Shown one piece after another: positions 1,398 to 27,374 of a stretch of 64,000 bases of DNA. Origin of the DNA: Agelas oroides (taxonomy: Eukaryota > Porifera > Demospongiae > Agelasida > Agelasidae); assembly GCA_949130485.1 (NCBI GenBank), contig OX422183.1:5076136-5140135 (forward strand), written 5' to 3'. The notes beneath the pieces were generated by a model. It worked only from the letters and a program-made list of their open reading frames with translations, had not been told where the DNA came from and made no database searches. The first letter of the stretch is position 1. Every line of letters starts with the position of its first letter. Both the position numbers and the translations under genes were made by a program.

Positions 1398-4195
1398 TTG
1401 AGGTCACAAGAAGATTATCCCGAACTGGTTCAGTTGAAGTATTGTTCACAAATACAACAAGTGAAGGAGGAGCCCAGCAACCCTACCAAGGTGGAGAAGA
1501 GTGAAGGTCAGGCTACCCAACTGAAAGATCAAAGCAGGCAAACTCATGCTAGTTCTGCACCAACACCCATCCCTTCAGCAAGTTCTTTCCCCTACCTTGA
1601 CCTCAGTGGGCTCATCCATGAGCAGCAGCAGGAACTCAGGGGAAGGCTGAGGTTTGAGTCTCGAGAGATAATGATGCGGTTTCAGGAGCTTGTGTCTGCA
1701 ACAATCAAGTCCCTGATCAGAAGAAATGTACTACTAGATGAGTAATTGTCTCATGTTATGACTTTGGGAGCATTTGATCCTGTGTTCAAGGAGCCGCAAG
1801 TGCCACTATTTCAATACTGCTTTAAAGAGTTGAAAACTGCAGACACTATTCTTAAAGTATTTCTGGTCCTCAAAGACTACTTCTCCTTCTTCAACTATGA
1901 CATCATTGAACACATTATCAAGGTGCTTGGCATAGAGGAAGACAAAGCTAATTTGGAGAGTTACAAGAGTACATTCAATCGATATGCAAAATGAAGAATC
2001 AATGAGTGTGGACCACATTTTGGACCCGTAAGTGACACTGACCATATGCTGATGTGTTTGTGAAGGTGGACTCCCGGTATGACAACTATACTGTTGAAGA
2101 GATCAAGGGGTTTTGTAACAAACTTAGTGACACTCTTTGTGTTTCATCAGAAGGTGCTTTGCGTCTATGTCGAATAGAGAAGGGATGTCTTCAGCTCACA
2201 TTCCAGGTGCCCTCATTTGTGCAACAGAAGGCATTTCCAGCAAGAGGGAACTCTGGAAGCTGAGGGTGTGACTACACTTACATGTGGGGAGTACCGGTTC
2301 CCAGATTGTGCTGAGAATGGTCGGCAGGTATTCTTGGATGACCCTCTTGCAGTTGAATTGGAGGGTTTTGATCCAGTCCAGAAAAAACCACAGCTTGATA
2401 CTGACACCAGTGTGTGTTTGACACCTAACGTGCTAGTTAGCTAGTGACCAACTTACCACTCTTACAGTCTGTACCACAAATAGTGCATGTCATGCAGTAC
2501 TTGACGGTATGGTAGTTGATTTCATTGCAGTTGAAGCAGTTGATGTCAATGAGCCAGGAACCACAACTTGATATTGATAGAGACTCAGCCATGGGATTCA
2601 GTGTATTCACAGGTGGAAAGAGCACTACATTATCTGAGGCAAGTCTTTTTAAGTTCATTACTCGTATACCTACATTGTTATAGCAGGTGGTACTGTGTCA
2701 ACTGCTTTTTTGGGGGGGACAGTAGGATTCTCTGGACAGAGGGCCAGAAGAAATGGACTTTGAACTGAAAGTGCAGGGTCTTGTAGAAATGCGCAAGTCT
2801 GGGAGTGATATGGAGCTACACCGTGCAGTAGCAATGGGACAATTGGAGATTGTCAAATTTCTTGTTGAGAAAAGCACTGCAACCCAAAGCAGAAAAATCA
2901 GAATGTACATGACTTTAATGCCCTTCACATGGCAGCAATTACAGGAAATCTCCAGATACTCAAGTATCTTATCATTGAAAGGAACTGCAACCCAGCATTT
3001 CCAGGTCAAATTGACATGCATGACACCACTTCATTTAGCTAGTCAACAAGGTCACCTTGATGTGGTTAAATATCTGGTGGATGAACAACAGATGGAACCA
3101 CTGCGTGAAGATGAGCATGGAAACACTGCACTGCATAAAGCTTGTGCAGGTGGCTGTCAGACAGTTGTTGAGTTTCTTACTTCAGAGCTTATGCAGTATA
3201 CTCCCATTCCAGAACTTTTGAGTGACCTCAAAAACAAATGGAACAGCACACCTCTTCACTCTGCTGTAGCACATGGTCACCTGGGCATTCTCCAATTCTT
3301 TATCTCTGATCAGAAGTGTGACCCAAACATTCTAGGTCAGCATGGTAGAACTCCTGTTCACTATGCTGCTGAATGTGGTCGTCTCCACATAGTCAAGTAT
3401 CTGACTGACAAGCAAGGCTGCAATCCATCGTGTTTGGCAGATAATATGTACACTCCTCTTCACATAGCTGCTGAATTTGGTAATTTGCACATAGTCAAGT
3501 ATTTGACTGATGAGCGAGGCTGCAATCCATCATGTCTGGATGAAAACAATTACACTCCACTTCATCATGCTGCCATAAAGGGGCACATTGACATTGACAT
3601 TGTGAAATTTCTTACTGTGAAGAAGCAATGTGATGCAATGTGTAAAGATTTTAATCCAAGTACTCCTCTTCATGGGGCAGCACTAAATGGCCACATGGAA
3701 GTAGTAAAGTTTCTCACTGTTGAAATGCACTGTGACCCAACAAGTAGAGATGAGAACAATGACACGGCTCTACATCTATATAGCAGTACTGGAAGGGCAT
3801 TTAGATATAGTCCAATTCTTTATCTCCAATCAGATATGTGACCCAAACATTCCAGGTCAGTATGGTGGCACTCTTCTTCACTGTGCTGCAGAGTTTGGTC
3901 ATCTGCACATAGTCAAGTATTTAACTGATGAGCAAGGCTGCAATCCATCATGCTTGGATGAACACAATGAAACTCCACTTCACTTAGCTGCTGTGAAGGG
4001 ACACACAGCCATTGTGAAGTTCCTTACTGTGGAGAAGCACTGTGACCCAGCAATACGAAACATTTATGGCAATACTGCTCTGTACTCCAGACATTGCATT
4101 TATAGGTGGTATACTCAATACATGAACAACATGACCTTACTTGAAATATGACTATACAAGAAAACCACCCTGATATTGCTCACTATTTACAGTGA
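1398..4195 (+). pseudogene. Decayed paralogue of the death-domain/ankyrin gene
   Basis: This region is collinear with exons 3-6 of the intact gene at 19177-25650. From 1560 it encodes the conserved module (FPYLDLSGL, IMMRFQELVSAT, YFSFFNYDIIEHIIKVLG, YDNYTVEEIKG). Disabling changes are visible: TAA at 1743-1745; TGA at 1992-1994 where the intact gene has an Arg CGA; a 2-nt insertion near 2044; a deletion near 2235. The ankyrin exon starts near 2730 and has a pair of compensating frameshifts (about 2870 and 3015), a 4-nt insertion near 3777, and a collapsed last repeat near 4085-4115. A linker exon near 2640 ends in GCAAGT, so its donor is GC or mutated. No 2A exon or death-domain exon was found upstream. 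Confidence 0.85.
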
Positions 4196-17131: not shown

Positions 17132-18056
17132 GGGATGGCGCCGACGCGCAATATATGCAATACTTAATTAAGCAAAAGCCGTATAATTTCACCACACTTG
17201 AACACGCTAAAAGCTTATTTAAGCGCCCAGGCTTCCTCTTTGAGTGCCTTTGTGATCAGCAAGACTCATACAAGTGGCCAAAAGCCACGCGGAAGATAGC
17301 TGAACACAAAAGTGTACGCTAGCAAAAGTGCCATTTTTCTTTCTTCGTTACAACGTTTGTTCAAGCAACAATAACTCAATAACGGTTCACCGTGATTTTA
17401 GCACGAAACTGATGCTTATCACAGCGCGGAGCTCTACGACCACTCGGCGGCTTCATAGCTTCAAGTTCACCCTGGTCAACAAAGCCATTCACAACACTCT
17501 GAGGCTGCTGTGCGTTGCTTAGGACGCCATTTTCTAATTGTGTACGCATGCGCACACGAAGTCTCGTTCCCAGACCAAAGACCACGGTCATTGGTCTGGA
17601 AGCGAGACGCGAAATCGCCAGCACAGTACGCATGGCTGTCACGGTCTTTTCCTCCAGCCAGCATTGGGCAAGGCTTATGAACACTACGTAGGTAAGGCGC
17701 TGCAGTCAGCTGCCTACTTGTAGCTACTCTACTCACAGTTTTATTGAACTGTAAAGCTAGGATGGTCAGTTGCCAGTATGATAGTAGCTTCTGTGCTGCA
17801 GCTGGTCAGTCGTCATGTGATTGACAACTGAAATTGGTTTCACAAAGTTTGGTAGGAAGAGTGGTTGGCCCTTCATCAGGTTCTAGCTGGCTATATTACG
17901 CATAATTATTTAATACATGCCTGGAACCACTACTAAACTGTCAACGCCGTTTCAAGTTCTGATGTGATTACACTTGAAATAGGCTTAGATCTAACTGTAA
18001 CTGAGATTAACATCAAAAAAGTACAGAAACAAGACTTAAAAACATTAAAAATGTAA

Positions 18057-18161
18057 AAAGATGTAGGGATGGCATGCCAAAAAGTGGGCAAACAAGGTAG
18101 GGATAACGCATGAAAGCAAAGGTCAACATATTGGCAAAGCCCCATCCCTACATCTTTTTCA
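18057..18161. mobile_element. 105-bp element with AAAAAGATGTAGGGATGG ends
   Basis: It begins AAAAAGATGTAGGGATGG and ends with the complement. The copy at 18904-19013 is its near-exact reverse complement about 740 bp away. Two diverged relatives, also arranged head-on, lie at 44257-44345 and 44361-44464. Identical short peptides predicted from the 18-kb copies are artefacts of this repeat. Confidence 0.85.
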
Positions 18162-18179
18162 CACTACAGCTGATGCAAT

Positions 18180-18579
18180 TAGCCTCGTTCCCAGGCCGTT
18201 CCCGGCTCCAGTTTCGATCGCTTGCAGTATAAAAACGGAGGGGAAGGCCTGGGAGAGAGAGTCACGTGCGTGACGTCAGGTAGACGTGAGGGGGGCGGTG
18301 CCCGATCGTTGTAATTCACAAACTTTGCGTTGATCAGCCTCGAGTCTACCATACAACGAGCTGTATTGACGCTGTCTTTCGAATGTTACAGTCTCAAGTT
18401 CTTGGACAAGATATTACAAGAAGGACCTCGAGATTCTTCGTCGGGCACCGCCCCCCCTCACGTCTACCCTCACGTCTACCTGACGTCACGCACGTGACTC
18501 TTTCTCCCAGGCCTTCCCCTCCGTTTTTATACTGCAAGCGATCAAAACTGGAGCCGGGAACGGCCTGGGAACGAGGCTA
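18180..18579. mobile_element. TAGCCTCGTTCCCAGGCC element, 400 bp, 9-bp TSD
   Basis: Same termini as the 16561 element, then CGTTCCCGGCTCCAGTTTCG and its complement as an extended inverted repeat. The perfect 9-bp flanking repeat TGATGCAAT lies at 18171-18179 and 18580-18588. The interior includes mirrored CACGTGCGTGACGTCAGGTA-type sequence. Non-coding. Confidence 0.93.
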
Positions 18580-18903
18580 TGATGCAATGCTGCTAGATCA
18601 TATTAGCCTCATTCCTGAGCCAACATGTGGGAGAAGGAATGTGGCCTGGGGACGAGGTTAAAACCATGCCATGTACTTTAACGACGCTATCATAAGTATG
18701 CAGTCTACTTCAACTTACTGCTTAAGTTGTTGAAGAGGTTCCATATAACATAATGCTACCAAGAGGGTCATACTAGCCTCATTACCGGGCCATGTGGGAG
18801 GAGGTGGCCTGAGAACAAGGCTACAGCCATGAACTGCCAGTAATAAAGGTTGTGAACTTGTGGTACGTTTTAGGAAGACCCGCATGCACTAACTGTAGTA
18901 TGA

Positions 18904-19013
18904 AAAAGATGTAGGGATGGGGCTTTGCCAATATGTTGACCTTTGCTTTCATGCGTTATCCCTACCTTGTTTGCCCACTTTTTGGCATGCCATCCCTACA
19001 TCTTTTTACATTT
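18904..19013. mobile_element. Second AAAAAGATGTAGGGATGG element, inverted copy
   Basis: The reverse complement of 18057-18161, including its interior GGGCTTTGCCAATATGTTGA. It ends about 160 bp before the start codon of the intact ankyrin gene, so it may lie in that gene's 5' UTR or promoter. Together with the first copy it could fold transcripts into a long hairpin. Confidence 0.85.
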
Positions 19014-19176
19014 CTTGTTTTTTAAGTCTTGTAGGGATTATGCATCACAACACACTAGGTGCACTGAGTCCAGCTACACTCAACAACTTTATAAGAGAGT
19101 TTATCTACAGTAGTGACTGTGCTGATAGTAATCATTTTTAGGCTGAATTTACTTTCTATACAGTGACAAGCTGATC

Positions 19177-22100
19177 ATGGGGATTGATCTTGCCACATGG
19201 CGGGCTCGAATTGGTCTCAACTACTACCACATGTGTCGCCCCCTCCAGACCAGGTGGAGAAGCAGTGGTGGTCGGCTGTACCAGCCTGGGGTGGCCAGCT
19301 GGGGAGTAGGGGAAGTCATGAATGACACACCCCTGGTGCTCAAGGGCTGTATGACAGTTGTTGCTCTGTCACTGATACTGCAGTATGTAGTCCATTCTTG
19401 GTCCAAGCTGAGGAGGAGAGGTGGGAGTGGCAAGGTGCGCTGCTATTGGCGAGGGTCCACTTCTCGAGTGAAGGGGATTTTGGATGGTGGGGGGACCCTG
19501 CTGCATAGAGCCATCGTGGTTGTGGTACCTCTACTCCTGGTGATAGCAGGGGATGTGGAGCTAAACCCTGGACCTCCCAAGAGGGAAGGTAAAGTAATTG
19601 GATACCTGTTTAGCTTATTGTGATGGTAGTACTCTTGTATCAAACCCTTACTGATAATAACTGATATGACTTACCTGGGCATGGAGATAAGAAGCAACGT
19701 ACATTCTTTGTTTTCCAGCACTGACACTAAAAGCTGCCATCAATGCACTGCATTCAGTGTGCCACAAGTGGTATAATATTGGAGTGCAATTGGAAGTTCC
19801 AACCTTTCAACTAAAAAACATTGAGAAGAAAACAAGTGACTCAATGGACCAGCTGCGCGATACACTGGACTACTGGATGAGCAATGACCTTTGCCCTTCC
19901 TGGAGGCATATTGTTGATGCATTGAAAGCCCCCAGTGTTGGTGAGAAGCGATTAGCTGAGGAAGTAGTGGAGAAGTATTGTGGTCTAGAGGAGCAAACCA
20001 GCTGCAGTGGGTCAGAAGTAGTTCAGTGTCGGCAAGGTATGTATGTATGTATGTATGTATGTATGCATGCTGTTCTCATCTGCACTGAGATGTGTACTCC
20101 TCTCTCTGCAGAAGTTTCATTGATAAGCCAAGGAACTCCAGAAGGAACATCATTTGCTGCTGCACTGCCTGGTGTGCTCACCTTAGAAAGTTCTAGTACT
20201 AGTACAGCAAGACACAGTAGCAATACCAGGCGTCCTCCAAGCGGCGATTTTGAACCAGTGCGAAAGAAACCACGACTTGATAGTGACACCATACCTGAAG
20301 GTAGCAGTAGCAGTCCCCCTCCAAGCGAGAGGTCTCAGAGGCCACCATTTGGGTGTGGGTGTGGCAAGTGCACATTCTTCAGTTTCATAGAGAGTGGCTG
20401 TCCAACACCAGTCCCCTCAACAAGTTCCTTCCCCTACCTGAACCTCAGTGGACTCACCCATGAGCAGCAGCAAGAACTCATGGGAAGGCTGAGGTTTGAG
20501 TCTCGAGAAATAATGATGCGATTCCAGGAGCTTGTTTCTGCAACAATCAAATCCCTCATTACACGAAATGTACCACTAGATGAGCTTGTGTCACATGTTA
20601 TGACTCTGGGAGCATTTAACCCTGTGTTCAAGGAGTCACAAGTGCCATTATTTCAATATTGCTTCCAAAGATTGGAATCTGCCGACACTATTCCCAAAAT
20701 ATTTCTGGTCCTCAAAGACTACTTCTCCTTCTTCAACTATGACATCATTGAACACATCATCAAGGTGCTTGGCACAAGGGAAGATAAAGCCAATTTACAG
20801 AGTTACAAGAATAGGTTTGATCAATATGCAAAACGAAGGATCTATGAGTGTGGGCCACATTTTGGACCAGTAAGTGACACTGACCATGCTGATGTATTTG
20901 TGAAAGTGGACTCACGGTATGACAACTACACTGTTGAAGAGATCAAGGGGTTATGTAACAAACTCAGTGAAACTCTTTGTGTTTCATCAGAAGGTGCTTT
21001 GCGTCTATGTCGAGTAGAGAAGGGATGTTTTCAGCTCACATTCCAGGTGCCCTCCTTTGTGCAGCAGGAGATATTCCCACTGTCTGAAGAACAAGAGAAG
21101 GCTCTATTAGCTGTGGGTGTTATCATGCTCAGATGTGGGAAGTACCAGTTTCGGGTAAGGTTGCCTGTGTTCTGATTGTTACCACATTGTCAACATCTCC
21201 TCATTGTAGGTTGGAATGAGGCATAGAAATGATGGCAAATTAAATATACATGTATTAGAGTCATGTACTTGTTTTCTTACAGAAAGATGAGCCATCACAG
21301 GCAGAAATTGGTATGTAGCATCATTTAAGACTCTGTCATATGCAAAATAGTCTCATACACCACATTGCTCTTTGGTTCATTTCACAGATAACAAACACCA
21401 GCATGATCCTGATGATGATTCTGGCATAGGTCCTAGCGCATTCACTGACACAAAGAGTACCACATTTTCTGAGGTAAGCTACTACCTCCCTCAATATATG
21501 TAGTGTTGTGGCCACACATGCTTATACTTTCCCTCTCATTTACTAGGATCGTCTGGGAAAAGAGATGAATGAATTAGATTATGAGCTGCAAGTGCAAGGT
21601 CTAGTAAAAACAGCATCTGCTGGGAATGGTTTAGAGCTCAAGTTTGTGGTAACAAGGGGACAATTGGAGGATGTCATGTATCTTGCTGAGAAAATGCACT
21701 GCAACCCAATGCAGTGCGATCATGATAGTTTTGCCGTTTTTCACGTGGCTGCAATTGTAGGAAATGTGCAGGCATTGAAGTATTTGATCACTGAGAGGAG
21801 CTGCAACCCAGCATGTCCAGGCCCACTTGGTTTAACAGCCCTTCATTTAGCTAGTGAACAAGGCCATCTTGATGTGGTTAAATATCTGGTTATTGAACAG
21901 CAGATGGAACCGCTGTGTGAAGATGAATACAGAAACACTCCACTTCATAGAGCTTGTGCTGGTGGCTGCCATGCAGTTGTTGAATTTCTTACTTCGGAAC
22001 TTGAAAAGTATGCCCCCTTTGCTGAACTTGTGGGTGACCTGAAGAACGAGTGGAACAGCACACCTCTTTACAGTGCAGTAGCACATGGACACTTAGACAT

Positions 22101-25100
22101 AGTCAAATTTTTCATCTCTGATCTGAACTGTGACCCAAACCTTACAGGTCAGTATGGTGGAACTCTTCTTCACACAGCTGCTGAATTTGGCTATCTACAC
22201 ATAGTCAAGTATTTAATTGATGAGCAAGGCTGCAATCCATCATGTTTGGATGAAAACAAATACACTCCTCTTCACTGTGCTGCCAAGGAGGGGCACATAG
22301 ACATTGTGAAATCCCTTACTGTGGGGAAGCACTGTGACCCAATGTGTGAAGATTCTAAGCAGAATACTCCTCTTCATTTTGCTGCCGTAAAGGGTCACAT
22401 AGACATTGTGAAGTTTCTTACTGTGGGGAAGCACTGTGACCCAATGTGTAGAAATTATGAACAGAGTACTCCTCTTCACAAGGCAGCACTGAATGGTCAT
22501 ATAGCCATAGTAAAGTTCCTCACTCATAAGTTGGACTGTGATTCAACATGTATAAATGCAAAAAATGACACTGCACTACATTTAGCAACAGTAAAAGGAC
22601 ATTTGGACATAATCCAATTCCTCATATCTGATCAGAATTGTGACCCAAACTGTCCAGGTCAGCATGGTGGAACTCCTCTTCACTATGCTGCTGCATTTGG
22701 CCATCTACACATAGTCAAGTATTTGATTGATGAGCAAGGCTGCAATCCATCATGTTTGGATAAACATAAGAACACTCCACTTCATTATGCTGCCATGAAG
22801 GGGCGCAAGAACAATGTGAAGTTTTGTATTATGGAGAAGCAATGTGATCCAATATGCAGAGGTTCTGATGAGGACCCTCCTCCGACGGCAGTACATGGTG
22901 ATATAGAGGTAATCAAGTTTCTCACTCTTGAGATGCACTGTGACCCAATAAGTAGAAATGCAGGCAATGCTACAGCACTACATCTAGCAGTCATGAATGG
23001 GCATTTGGACGTAATTCAGTTCTTCATCTCTGATCAGAACTGTGATCCTAACATTCCAGGTCATTGTGGTGGAACTCCTCTTCACATGGCTGCTGCATTT
23101 GGTCATCTGCACATATTCAAGTATTTGACTGACGAACAAGGCTGCAATCCATCATGTTCGGATGAACACAAGTTTACTCCACTTCATTGCGCTGCCATGG
23201 AGGGACACTTGGATATTGTGAAGTTTCTTACTGTGGCGAAGCACTGTGACCCAATGTGCAGAGATTCTGATCAGGACACTCCTCTTCACAAGGCAGCACG
23301 AAATGGTCATATAGAGGTGGTAAAGTTCCTCACTCTTGAGATGAATTGTGACCCAACAGATAGAAATTCTCACAATGTCACTGCTCTACATCTAGCAGTA
23401 GTGAATGGACATTTGGACATTGTTCAGTTCTTTGTCTCTGATCAAAAATGTGACCCGAGCATTCCAGGAGGTCTCAAGTACAGTAGAACTCCTCTTCACA
23501 TGGCTGCTGAGATTGATCATCTGCACATTGTCAAGTATTTGACTGATGAACAAGGTTGCAATCCATCTTGTTTGGATGAACACAAGTACACTCCTCTTCA
23601 CTGTGCTGCCATGGAGGGGCACATGGACATTGTGAAGTTCCTTACTGTAGAGAAACAATGTGATCCAATGTGTAGAGACTCTAATCAAGAAACCCCTCTT
23701 CACTGGGCAGCAGAACGTGGTCATATAGACACAGTGAAGTTTCTCACTAATGAAATGCACTGTGACCCAAACAGTAGAGATGCTGAAAATGCCACAGCTT
23801 TACATCTAGCAGTAACTAATGGACATTTGGACATAGTCCAATTCTTAATCTCTGATCAGAACTGTGACCCAAACATTCCAGGTCACTGTGGTCGAACTCC
23901 TCTTCACTATGCTGCCGAGTTTGGTCATATACACATAGTCAAGTATTTTACCCACGAGCAAGGCTGTAATCCATCATGTTTGGATGAAGATATGTCCACT
24001 CCACTTCACTCTGCTGCTGCAAAGGGGCATGTAGAAATTGCAAAGTACCTAGAGAAGCACTGTGACTCAATGTGTAGAGACTCCATGCAGAAGACTCCAC
24101 TACACATGGCAGCCATGGAGGGCCACAGAGAGGTAGTTGAATTCCTTACTGTGGAGAAGCACTGTGACCCAATGTGTAAAGACATTAATTTGAACACTCC
24201 TCTTCACATGGCAGCTGGTGAAGGTCATGAAGATATAGTAAAGTTCCTCACTCTTCAGATGCACTGTGATCCAACAAGTAGAAATGCTAACAATGACACT
24301 GCTCTACATCTAACTGTAGCGACTGGACATTTGGACATACTCCAATTCTTTATCATTAGTCAGAATTGTAATCCAAACATTCCAGGAGGTCAGTATGGTG
24401 GAACTCCTCTTCACTATGCTGCTTGGTTTGGTCGTCTCCACATAGTCAAGTATTTAACTGATGAACAGGGCTCCAATCCATCATGTTTGGATGAAAAAAG
24501 ACTCTCTCCTCTTCACTATGCTTCCATGAAGGGACACATTGACATTGTTAAGTTTCTTAGTGTGGAGAAGCATTGTGACCCAATGTGTAGAGATTCTGAA
24601 CAGTTCACTCCTCTCCATTGGGCAGCACAAAATGGTCATATAGAGATAGTTACGTTCTTCACTCTTGAAATGCACTGTGACCTATCATGCAGAATTTACA
24701 CTAATGCCACTGCTCTACATCTAGCAGCAGGGAAGGGGCATTTGGACATAATTCAGTTTTTCATTTCTGATCAAAAATGTGACCCAAACATTCCAGGTCA
24801 ACATGGTAGAACTCCTCTGTACCATGCTACTGAGTGCGGTCATTTGCACATAGTCAAGTATTTGATTGAGGAGCAAGGCTGCAACCCATCATCTTTGGAT
24901 GAAGGCAAGCTCACTCCACTTCACTGTGCAGCTGCAAAGGGGCACATAGACATTGTGAAGTTCCTGACTGTGAAGAACTACTGTGATCCGATGTGTAGAG
25001 ATTTTATTCTGAACACTCCTCTTCATTGGGCAGCAAAATACGGTCATAATGAGATAGTAAGGTTCCTAACTCTTGAAATACACTGTGATCCAACAAGTAG

Positions 25101-25650
25101 AAATGTTAACAATTCCACTGCTCTACATCTAGCAGTGATGAATGGACATTTGAATCTAGTGCAATTCTTTATCTTTGAGCAAAATTGTGACCCAAATATT
25201 CCAGGTCAGCGTGGTGGAACTCCTCTTCACTTAGCTGCTTACTTCGGTCATCTGCACATAGTCAAGTATTTAACTGAAGAGCAAGGCTGTAATCCATCAT
25301 GTTTAGATGAAAACAAGCACACTCCAATTCACTTTGCTGCCATGAAGGGATACATTTACATCGTAAAATTCCTAACTGTGGAGAAGCACAGCAACCCAAT
25401 GGCACAAGACATTTATGACAATAACGCTCTTCACTACGCAGTACAGCATGGTCACTTGGATATAGTTAAGTTTCTCATTGAGGAGCTGAAGTGTCCTCCA
25501 GACATCATAGGACAACAAAACACAACCCCACTCCAAATGGCTAGACACGAAAATCACTTGGTCATTGCTCAATATCTACAAAAGTGCAGCGTAATACCTT
25601 ACATATATACTGCTCTACTTGCTATGAAACGGCTTGGATTCCTGAAATAG
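19177..25650 (+). CDS. 2A-like leader / death domain / ankyrin-repeat protein (intact)
   Basis: My exon model is 19177-19588, 19719-20036, 20112-21154, 21283-21310, 21388-21473 and 21547-25650. All introns are GT-AG, all phases agree, and it gives 1,996 codons plus TAG. Residues 1-137 are a basic/hydrophobic leader ending in the 2A-like GDVELNPGP (125-133). About 140-228 are a death domain. About 357-495 form a conserved helical module and about 503-591 an alpha/beta module. A short acidic linker follows, then about 38 ankyrin repeats from residue 660 to the end. The ATG has A at -3 and G at +4. There is no NACHT or TIR domain. The architecture suggests an intracellular immune or stress adaptor or receptor whose ankyrins bind the ligand and whose death domain signals; that role is inferred. 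It is the only undamaged member among four ankyrin loci here. Confidence 0.88.
19549..19575 (+). other. 2A-like ribosome-skipping motif
   Basis: Encodes GDVELNPGP, preceded by the hydrophobic VVVVPLLLVIA. This fits the D-[VI]-E-x-N-P-G-P consensus; in known 2A sequences the bond between the last Gly and Pro is not formed and translation continues. The final Pro would be residue 133, and exon 1 ends five codons later. Upstream, residues about 53-75 (LVLKGCMTVVALSLILQYVV) look like a membrane or signal-anchor helix. The product released by skipping would be a small hydrophobic protein of 132 residues. Confidence 0.9.
19719..20036 (+). other. Death-domain exon
   Basis: Exon 2 encodes LTLKAAINALHSVCHKWYNI-GVQLEV, then IEKKTSDSMDQLRDTLDYWM and PSWRHIVDALKAPSVGEKRL. 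The spacing of W-Y-x-I-G, the aliphatic I-x-x-I, the charged helix and the S-W-x-x-I-V-x-A-L signature is that of a death-domain six-helix bundle. Acceptor TTTTCCAG, donor GGTATGT. It would become the N-terminal domain of the mature protein after 2A skipping. Confidence 0.85.
20037..20111 (+). other. 75-nt intron without stop codons, starting in a (GTAT)n repeat
   Basis: It starts GTATGTATGTATGTATGTAT and ends TCTCTCTGCAG. Its length is a multiple of three and it has no in-frame stop, so retention would add 25 residues (MYVCMYVCMHAVL...). I treat it as an intron because of its strong splice signals. Several overlapping GTATGT donors, 4 nt apart, are available. Confidence 0.75.
20450..21154 (+). 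other. Conserved helical plus alpha/beta (possibly TRADD-N-like) module
   Basis: Residues about 357-495 include IMMRFQELVSATIKSLITRN, LVSHVMTLGAF and FLVLKDYFSFFNYDIIEHII, which look all-helical. Residues about 503-591 read DVFVKVDSRYDNYTVEEIKG, then GALRLCRVEKGCFQLTFQVP and ALLAVGVIMLRCG. This predicts beta-alpha-beta-beta-alpha-beta with a conserved EKGC/EEGS-like turn. I know similar pairs from invertebrate NLR, TIR and ankyrin proteins. The second part recalls TRADD-N-like domains also reported in bacterial immune effectors; that assignment is inference. The decayed paralogue at 1560-2300 carries the same module. Confidence 0.6.
21547..25650 (+). other. Ankyrin exon, about 38 repeats in four-repeat super-units
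   Basis: A single 4.1-kb exon. Ankyrins fall into recurring types: TALHLAVxNGHLDIVQFFIS, then TPLHYAAxFGHLHIVKYLTD, then TPLHCAAMEGHIDIVKFLTV, then TPLHKAARNGHIEVVKFLTL. The series restarts at about 22571, 22974, 23380, 23791, 24299, 24710 and 25117. Spacing is about 405-411 bp except one of about 508, which holds an extra ankyrin. The array therefore grew by duplication of four-repeat blocks. Nearly every repeat has a conserved HCDP or GCNP cysteine in its loop. One repeat near 22860-22905 is shortened and lacks TPLH. Confidence 0.88.
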
Positions 25651-25775: not shown

Positions 25776-27374
25776 CCAAATTCTTGTCCAATTTTTTTTA
25801 TCTCTGATCACAATTGTGACCCAAATATCCCAGGCCAGTATGGTAGAACTCCTCTTCATTATGCTGCTGATTTTGGTCATCTCCACATTGTCCTGACAAG
25901 CAAGACTGCAATCTGTCATGTTTAGATGATAACAAGTGCACTCCACTTCACTCTTACTGTGAAGAAGCACTGTGACCCGATGTGTAAAGATGGTTTATTC
26001 CCACTTTGTCAATTCCCACTTGGTCAATTCCCATTTGGTCAACTTCCCACTTGGTCAATTCCCACTTCGTCAATTCCCACTTTGTCAATTCCCATTTGGT
26101 CAATGTTGACAAAGTGGGAATTGACAAAGTGGGAATTGATAAAGTATATTTAAAAAAAGGTTGAAATGTGATGCTGTCTAGATGTTGGGATGCGGTTGAC
26201 TATGCTGGCCATTATACACAGCATAAAGAACTGATAGAACAACTGTGGGCTGGCCTTGATATATAGATGGTTTCAAGGGAAGGGAACAAGGCGGTTTTGA
26301 TCATTTTGCCCCGTGCCCACTAGAAGAAAGTCCTCCTAACGGGTCCACTCTCCCCTGAAGTCAATCTCTTCTCCTATTTGAGGCAATGTTGGAAACGTCT
26401 GAAGCCTGCTGCAATAGAGTGATGACTTAAGGTTTTGGAATGAAGACAAATTGACAGCTGTTTCATCACACCCAGGGGCACCATACAGTTTTGTCATCTC
26501 CTGACAGTAGATTTGACTGATGCACTAAAAAATTCACTGATCTATAACAGTGGTTAGAAGTATATATAATGGTAAATCTTCCCACTTCGTCAACTTCCCA
26601 CTTCGTCATGTTCAATTCCCACTTTGTCAATTCCCACTTTGTCAACATTGACCAAATGGGAATTGACAAAGTGAGAATTGACGAAGTGGGAAGTTGACCA
26701 AATGGGAATTGACGAAGTGGGAATTGACAAAGTGGGAAGTTGACCAAATGGGAATTGACGATGTGGGAATTGACAAAGTGGGAATAAACCGTAAAGATCT
26801 CCAAGTACTCCTGTTCATGGCGCAGCACGAAATGGCCACATGGAAGTAGTAAAGTTTCTCACTTGAAATGCACTGTGACCCAACAAGTAGAGACGAGAAC
26901 AATGATACAGCTCTACATCTAGCAGTACTGGAAGGGCATTTAGATATAGTCCAATTCTTTATCTCCAATCAGAAGTGTGACCCAAACATTCCAGGTCAGT
27001 ATGGTGGCACTCTTCTTCACTGTGCTGCAGAGTTTGGTCATCTGCACATGGTCAAGTATTTAACTGATGAGCAAGGCTGCAATCCATCATGCTTGGATGA
27101 ACACAATGAAACTCCACTTAACTTAGCTGCTGTGAAGGGACACACGACCATTGTGAAGTTCCTTACTGTGAAGAAGCACTGTGACCCAACAATACGAAAC
27201 ATTTATGGCAATACTGCTCTGCACTATGCAGTAGCTGGTGGTCACCTAGAGATAGTTCAATTTTTTATTGAGGAGGTAAAATGTCCTCCAGACATTGTAG
27301 GACAGCACAACATGACCTTACTCGAAATGGCTATACGAGAAAACCACCCTGATATCGTTCAGTATTTGCAGTGA
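25776..27374 (+). pseudogene. Ankyrin-repeat relic split by a mobile element
   Basis: 25776-25991 contains ankyrin sequence (DHNCDPNIPGQYGRTPLHYA) with internal deletions that lose the frame. An element occupies 25992-26790. Ankyrin sequence resumes at 26799 (STPVHGAARNGHMEVVKFL), breaks at a 2-nt deletion near 26860, then runs open from 26868 to a stop at 27372-27374 (NHPDIVQYLQ). The last 500 bp match the end of the pseudogene at 3660-4195, and both are followed by the same spacer and a receptor copy. This marks the left part of the segmental duplication. No start or upstream domains are present. Confidence 0.88.
25992..26790. mobile_element. 799-bp element with 8-bp TSD inside the ankyrin relic
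   Basis: It begins GGTTTATTCCCACTTTGTCA and ends in the complement (GTGGGAATAAACC). The perfect 8-bp target duplication GTAAAGAT lies at 25984-25991 and 26791-26798. Removing it rejoins ankyrin sequence like that at 3640-3660. Both ends carry stacked variants of TTCCCACTT(T/C)GTCAA, about 14 bp each. The centre (26150-26570) is unique non-coding sequence. An 8-bp duplication suggests hAT-type mobilisation, by inference only. Confidence 0.93.

Follow-up and report, generated by a model that had tools for sequence, protein, structure and literature searches.

A leader exon that ends in a StopGo (2A) sequence opens the coding region of a death-domain/ankyrin gene in the 64-kb stretch of DNA analysed here (C1:5076136-5140135 of a 259-Mb, 141-contig sponge genome; hereafter the window, whose own numbering is used for all positions given without a contig). 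Sequence comparisons indicate that this exon is probably a functional cellular StopGo unit (probability roughly 0.78), by which one mRNA would give rise to a membrane-prone leader and to a separate soluble death-domain/ankyrin protein.

The predicted gene and all of its features listed here lie on the + strand. Its six coding exons, joined throughout at GT-AG borders, encode 1,996 residues before a single terminal stop. Its first coding exon (19177..19588) has an open frame that translates as MGIDLATWRARIG...VVVVPLLLVIAGDVELNPGP followed by PKRE, and it comprises leader residues 1-133, the PKRE codons and one further base. The open frame and the motif codons (19549..19575) bear out the leader ending in GDVELNPGP that an earlier note on this DNA had described. 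A phase-1 intron (19589..19718) is predicted directly after the 2A leader. The in-frame join across its GT-AG borders to the death-domain exon (19719..20036) was worked out for this gene only, and donor candidates are present in the other leader copies. Exon 3 (20112..21154), supported by matches elsewhere in the genome, encodes a linker and an undescribed domain of ~270 residues. It is followed in the gene model by two small exons (exon 4, 21283..21310; exon 5, 21388..21473) and by an ankyrin-repeat exon of 1367 codons that runs to the stop codon (21547..25650; identified by Pfam for its first part and by motif count).

Several repeats and related reading frames surround the gene. Two nested, MITE-like inverted repeats lie directly upstream (18039-19023 and 18180-18579), with arms of 139 nt (94%) and 113 nt (98%), and a short tandem/inverted repeat of CAATTCCCACTTTGT-like units lies downstream (26003-26145). 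Other ankyrin-repeat open frames are found in the window at 368-898, 2726-3841 and 26853-27374, and a further copy of the exon-3 domain, broken by four in-frame stops, lies at 1551-2300 (C1:5077686-5078435). The nearest upstream copy of the leader, at C1:5070864, falls outside the window.

The StopGo/2A core GDVELNPGP, with its skip predicted between G132 and P133 (19572/19573), is the sole 2A match in the window and has zero mismatches. When the window was shuffled and three mismatches were allowed, a mean of 0.43 matches was obtained and 33 of 100 shuffles gave at least one, so the comparison at this scale is not decisive by itself. Across the 259-Mb genome the codon pattern for D(V/I/M)ExNPGP occurred at 285 sites and the reversed pattern at 0; this control and the codon analysis below reject a chance match as the origin of the motif. 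The window's DVELNPGP, preceded by G, agrees with the core octapeptide (D/G/C/N)(V/I)ExNPGP, and LLVIAG immediately upstream fits, in a by-eye comparison with the classes described in PMC12846837, the L-rich StopGo context with G before D. A genome search with the leader returned 146 matches at E <=10, of which 66, on eight contigs, were full length (residues 1 to at least 133 without a stop). The motif was present in at least 63 of these 66. The full-length leader at C3:504199 is absent from a listing of DV sites that covers all of C3 and may deviate from the motif, and two others (on C14 and C10) may lie beyond the motif sites listed, since 240 of the 285 sites were read out.

Selection was measured on the best-scoring 30 of the 146 leader matches, 29 of them distinct. 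G125, D126, E128, N130, P131, G132 and P133 were invariant in all 30 copies while their codons varied; residue 127 was V in 29 and M in one, leaving 29 of the 30 in agreement with the octapeptide consensus, and the free x position carried six different residues (T20 L5 R2 V1 M1 I1). For GDVE-NPGP with x left out, pS was 0.435 and pN 0.0037 (pN/pS 0.008). Because silent changes are many, replacements nearly absent and x free, these sequences identify the motif as one under selection as StopGo/2A, which, with the reversed-pattern control, turns the earlier note's 2A-like motif into a selected one. Purifying selection is not confined to it: when 125 windows of 9 codons were ordered by pN/pS with x counted, the motif had the 15th lowest value, and N-terminal windows ranked below it, the six lowest all falling within leader residues 1-15. 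Pooled dN/dS was 0.26 for residues 1-52, 0.33 for 53-73, 0.64 for 74-107, 0.42 for 108-124 and 0.089 for 125-133. The leader itself, beyond the motif, is under strong constraint.

Two hydrophobic segments, scored by Kyte-Doolittle alone, precede the skip site. The first (residues 54-72; 19336..19392) is a candidate membrane helix with a 19-residue mean of 1.91; the loop after it is basic (+8), a charge that is not decisive for orientation. The second (residues 108-124; 19498..19548) scores 2.22 over residues 107-125 and ends in PLLLVIA, adjoining the motif; L119-L121 within it are invariant across the 30 leader copies. The membrane-prone leader with a second hydrophobic run by the motif, as proposed earlier, thus agrees with these scores. 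A putative acceptor-like AG (19162..19163), 13 nt before the ATG, would mark a junction with a probable 5' untranslated exon: an acceptor-like YAG lies 11-18 nt 5' of the ATG in 21 of the 30 copies, the window copy included, and is absent in nine, and the stretch ahead of it is at least half pyrimidines. The leader exon is real, as first described. It had been called exon 1, but an untranslated exon probably precedes it, which would make it the first of the coding exons only. Its ATG stands in a strong context (A at -3 in 29/30 copies, G at +4 in 30/30); in the L013 copy a stop in the same frame lies two codons ahead of it. At the other end, a GT donor candidate occurs 4 or 13 nt past the last Pro codon in 29 of the 30 leaders, the remaining one (L020) being of GC type. 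Searches of the leader against Pfam, PDB sequences and phages gave no match, and no relative was confirmed among short-pattern matches to 5 viral_contigs and 67 genome_contigs (prokaryotes only).

The protein encoded downstream appears to be, as the earlier note had it, a death-domain/ankyrin protein and not a NACHT protein. All 20 aligned members of the death-exon family matched Pfam Death (PF00531) at E <=1, the best at 3.2e-7, and the family profile matched FADD chains in the PDB (E 2.3e-4) and, more weakly, PIDD chains (E 0.013). The window exon itself matched Pfam Death at E 0.0084 with 16.7 bits, below the curated cut-off of 22.6 bits, and at E 0.16 within a longer stretch; the label is weak for this copy alone and is supported by the family profile and alignments. 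A single-sequence AlphaFold2 model of the exon had five helices, where the death-domain fold has six, at a pLDDT of 52, too poor for a fold search. The ~270-residue exon-3 domain (CGCGKCTFFSFIESGCP...) had no match in Pfam and at least 146 matches in the genome at E <=0.001, many of them on contigs C1 and C3. Over the 637 residues that begin at Pro133, Pfam gave no NACHT match, and none of the 63 motif-bearing leaders had a NACHT exon within 9 kb among the NACHT exons listed.

The architecture recurs across the genome. Downstream exons were taken from lists in which 150 of 741 death candidates and 105 of 314 NACHT candidates had been scored, and the pairings counted here are consequently lower bounds. 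At least 56 of the 63 motif-bearing leaders are followed within 8-9 kb by a death exon, an exon-3 domain or both (both in at least 42); the other seven have neither among the exons listed. The order leader, death domain, exon 3 was kept in 18 of 20 further long loci within the fetched stretch. The pairing that had been singled out as an oddity is, on these counts, common here. The two other loci, L046 and L050, had the leader alone in the fetched stretch, and a listed death exon lies ~10 kb downstream of the L050 leader. By a crude count, all of the 20 except L037, L046 and L048 (17 loci) had a frame with at least six ankyrin-like motifs. Downstream of at least 83 of the 170 motif sites read out on five contigs lies a death or NACHT exon; for random points the share averaged 0.7% and reached at most 2.9% in 200 rounds. 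A NACHT exon follows at least 4 of the 240 sites read. Among the exons listed, 123 of the 240 have no downstream death, exon-3 or NACHT exon, seven of them in this leader family and 116 elsewhere, and some of these 116 may be retrotransposons. An identical 23-nt motif, GATGTCGAAGCTAACCCAGGGCC, occurs at C1:12658760, C2:15755301, C3:14553507, C6:4736377 and C6:6417791 (four contigs) and is perhaps a retrotransposon 2A. Further clusters of 2A sites lie at C8:9.3-10.1 Mb, at C7:2.99-3.32 Mb and, with a second leader family, at C9:0.6-1.6 Mb.

That second family emerged from six other motif sites (L051-L056), four of which (L051, L052, L055 and L056) share a leader distinct from that of the window. 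L053 resembles a distant relative of the window leader (MGIDVDQWRARIG) with three hydrophobic peaks, and L054 precedes a NACHT exon. A search with the second leader gave 66 matches; 61 are nearly complete and extend to the 2A end, and three contain a stop. The exact motif is present in at least 45 of the 61 (44 listed, plus L052, which was read), and a death exon lies within 8 kb downstream of at least 50. BLASTP between the window and L056 leaders gave an alignment (40%, E 1e-4) confined to the ~46 C-terminal residues about the 2A, suggesting that the two families are largely unrelated, with a distant kinship possible. L051 and L056, the two members scored, are each hydrophobic in an early segment and again at the motif; as judged from the sequences, the families share both this layout and the StopGo end. 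In a cluster at C1:3.0-3.2 Mb, the exon-3 domain of the window gene also lies downstream of five second-family leaders with the motif (four also with a listed death exon; one leader with an in-frame stop). One effector module thus occurs with two different leaders.

Leaders and effectors also appear to have evolved separately. Among 20 genes (19 fetched and the window gene), pairwise identities of leader and death domain showed no relation (Spearman -0.05, p 0.45; 190 non-independent pairs), and in the 99 pairs that span the two death-domain types the leaders averaged 87% identity and the death domains 37%. In a leader tree with 11 of 16 inner branches weak, the window leader grouped with L031 (type I) and with L032 and L042 (type II) at support 97/96. 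Exchange or conversion of leader exons would be the simplest account of this decoupling. A broader proposal, which we offer tentatively and at somewhat below even odds, is that this animal makes general use of StopGo to obtain a pair of proteins from a single death-domain gene. Leader exons would be interchangeable parts drawn from two or more largely unrelated families, and each would encode a membrane-prone peptide that has a function of its own and a StopGo site at its end. Shuffling or homogenisation would have placed them on diversified death-domain effectors, and synthesis of a membrane component would then always be accompanied, probably at the membrane, by that of its cytosolic partner.

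If the window unit is active, the nascent ...PLLLVIAGDVELNPG in the exit tunnel would block the Gly-Pro bond, the 132-residue leader would be released, and translation would resume at Pro133 to produce the separate soluble death-domain/ankyrin protein. The ribosome tunnel hides 30-40 residues. Because the first hydrophobic segment lies ~60 residues ahead of the skip site, residues 54-72 could already have been met by the membrane-targeting machinery before the skip, and the free leader would then probably end as a small membrane protein in its own right, made alongside the death/ankyrin product. Chains that do not skip would be tethered to the membrane. The leader might enter the membrane with or without skipping, and we give two products no lower odds than a single product in two places. 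What we infer is a skipping ribosome, membrane insertion, a function for the free leader and a role in innate immunity.

One product in two places would correspond to dual targeting as in sea-urchin NLRs: the leader would act chiefly as a signal or anchor, the skip ratio would set the shares of cytosolic and of membrane-bound or exported death/ankyrin protein, and the free leader would have no role of its own. The earlier note had envisaged such targeting by failed skipping, which is possible. The window leader is indeed hydrophobic, the sea-urchin N-terminal 2A sequence behaves in this way in HeLa and plant cells (PMC4981915), and transmembrane segments are reported in sponge NLR architectures (PMC12909245). 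A leader of ~133 residues and not 26, in which a separate hydrophobic segment stands well apart from the motif, fits such a role less well, and a mere signal would have no need of the N-terminal 15 residues that are the most constrained in the leader. We regard dual targeting as the less likely account; since it too needs an active StopGo, its odds overlap with those of the preferred reading, in which the freed leader is a product in itself.

A relic, that is a leader and motif derived from a mobile element or virus and carried without present function, seems very unlikely. 2A sequences are known in non-LTR retrotransposons and viruses, and the identical 23-nt DNA at some listed motif sites on several contigs is element-like. 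A relic would nevertheless not be expected to keep the motif's pN close to zero in 30 copies whose pS there is high, nor to form a first coding exon with a strong start context and a donor candidate just past the motif, nor to sit so regularly on death/exon-3 genes; on these grounds a mobile-element relic is disfavoured, and a leader relative was not confirmed in the phages, viral_contigs or genome_contigs (prokaryotes only). Slighter still is the chance that the motif is a fortuitous match in a conserved hydrophobic leader, its residues kept for folding and without skipping, for although much of the leader is conserved and StopGo activity here is predicted from sequence, the changes tolerated in the motif, at x and, apart from it, a single V to M, fit StopGo, the second leader family has the same ending with similarity confined to the last ~46 residues, and 285 sites stand against 0 reversed.

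StopGo in the host gene is therefore our preferred reading, and its abundance on death-domain genes comes as a surprise, since cellular genes are considered to use such signals only rarely; PMC12846837 describes cellular use as rare and gives the sea-urchin proteins as an example. A single animal genome here holds 66 full-length and 61 near-full leaders of two families, mostly upstream of death exons. If active, they would constitute a natural multigene system in which to ask why ribosome skipping should couple a membrane peptide to a signalling protein and whether the skip ratio is under control. They may also offer a reason for the transmembrane segments that a study of Dysidea avara reports in sponge NLR genes (PMC12909245). 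Among the entries listed in the literature searches, none reports a 2A leader on a death/ankyrin gene of a sponge; the survey of viral and cellular proteomes by Rao et al. 2025 (Cell Rep.), so described in PMC12846837, may already list such cases.

Components of this arrangement have counterparts elsewhere. The death domain is of the FADD type (PF00531), family members matching Pfam Death and the profile matching FADD chains; here it is encoded together with the undescribed ~270-residue domain and a long ankyrin array. Odon et al. in 2013 reportedly described 2A sequences in non-LTR retrotransposons. Those elements place the same octapeptide in animal genomes, whereas the window motif lies in a spliced host gene. 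With the viral L-rich StopGo/2A class (Li et al. 2026; PMC12846837) the window leader shares, by eye, the core octapeptide, the G before D and the leucine-rich upstream stretch; that class is described as ending in (A/S/C)G before D, and a representative of its L-rich motif 6 was active in lysate. The window leader differs in belonging to a cellular multigene family, in being spliced, and in that its activity is predicted. The closest parallel is the NLR 2A of the sea urchin Strongylocentrotus purpuratus (Roulston et al. 2016; PMC4981915), where likewise an N-terminal hydrophobic leader ending in D(V/I)ExNPGP precedes a death-domain immune-type protein with many paralogs. There the leader has 26 residues, the signal is the 2A itself and the proteins are NACHT proteins; in the window gene it has ~133 residues, a separate hydrophobic segment (54-72) and its own exon with a phase-1 donor, and it precedes a death/exon-3/ankyrin protein in which no NACHT was found. 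The kind of arrangement is thus known from sea-urchin NLRs, and the long leader, the non-NACHT partner and the scale set the present one apart.
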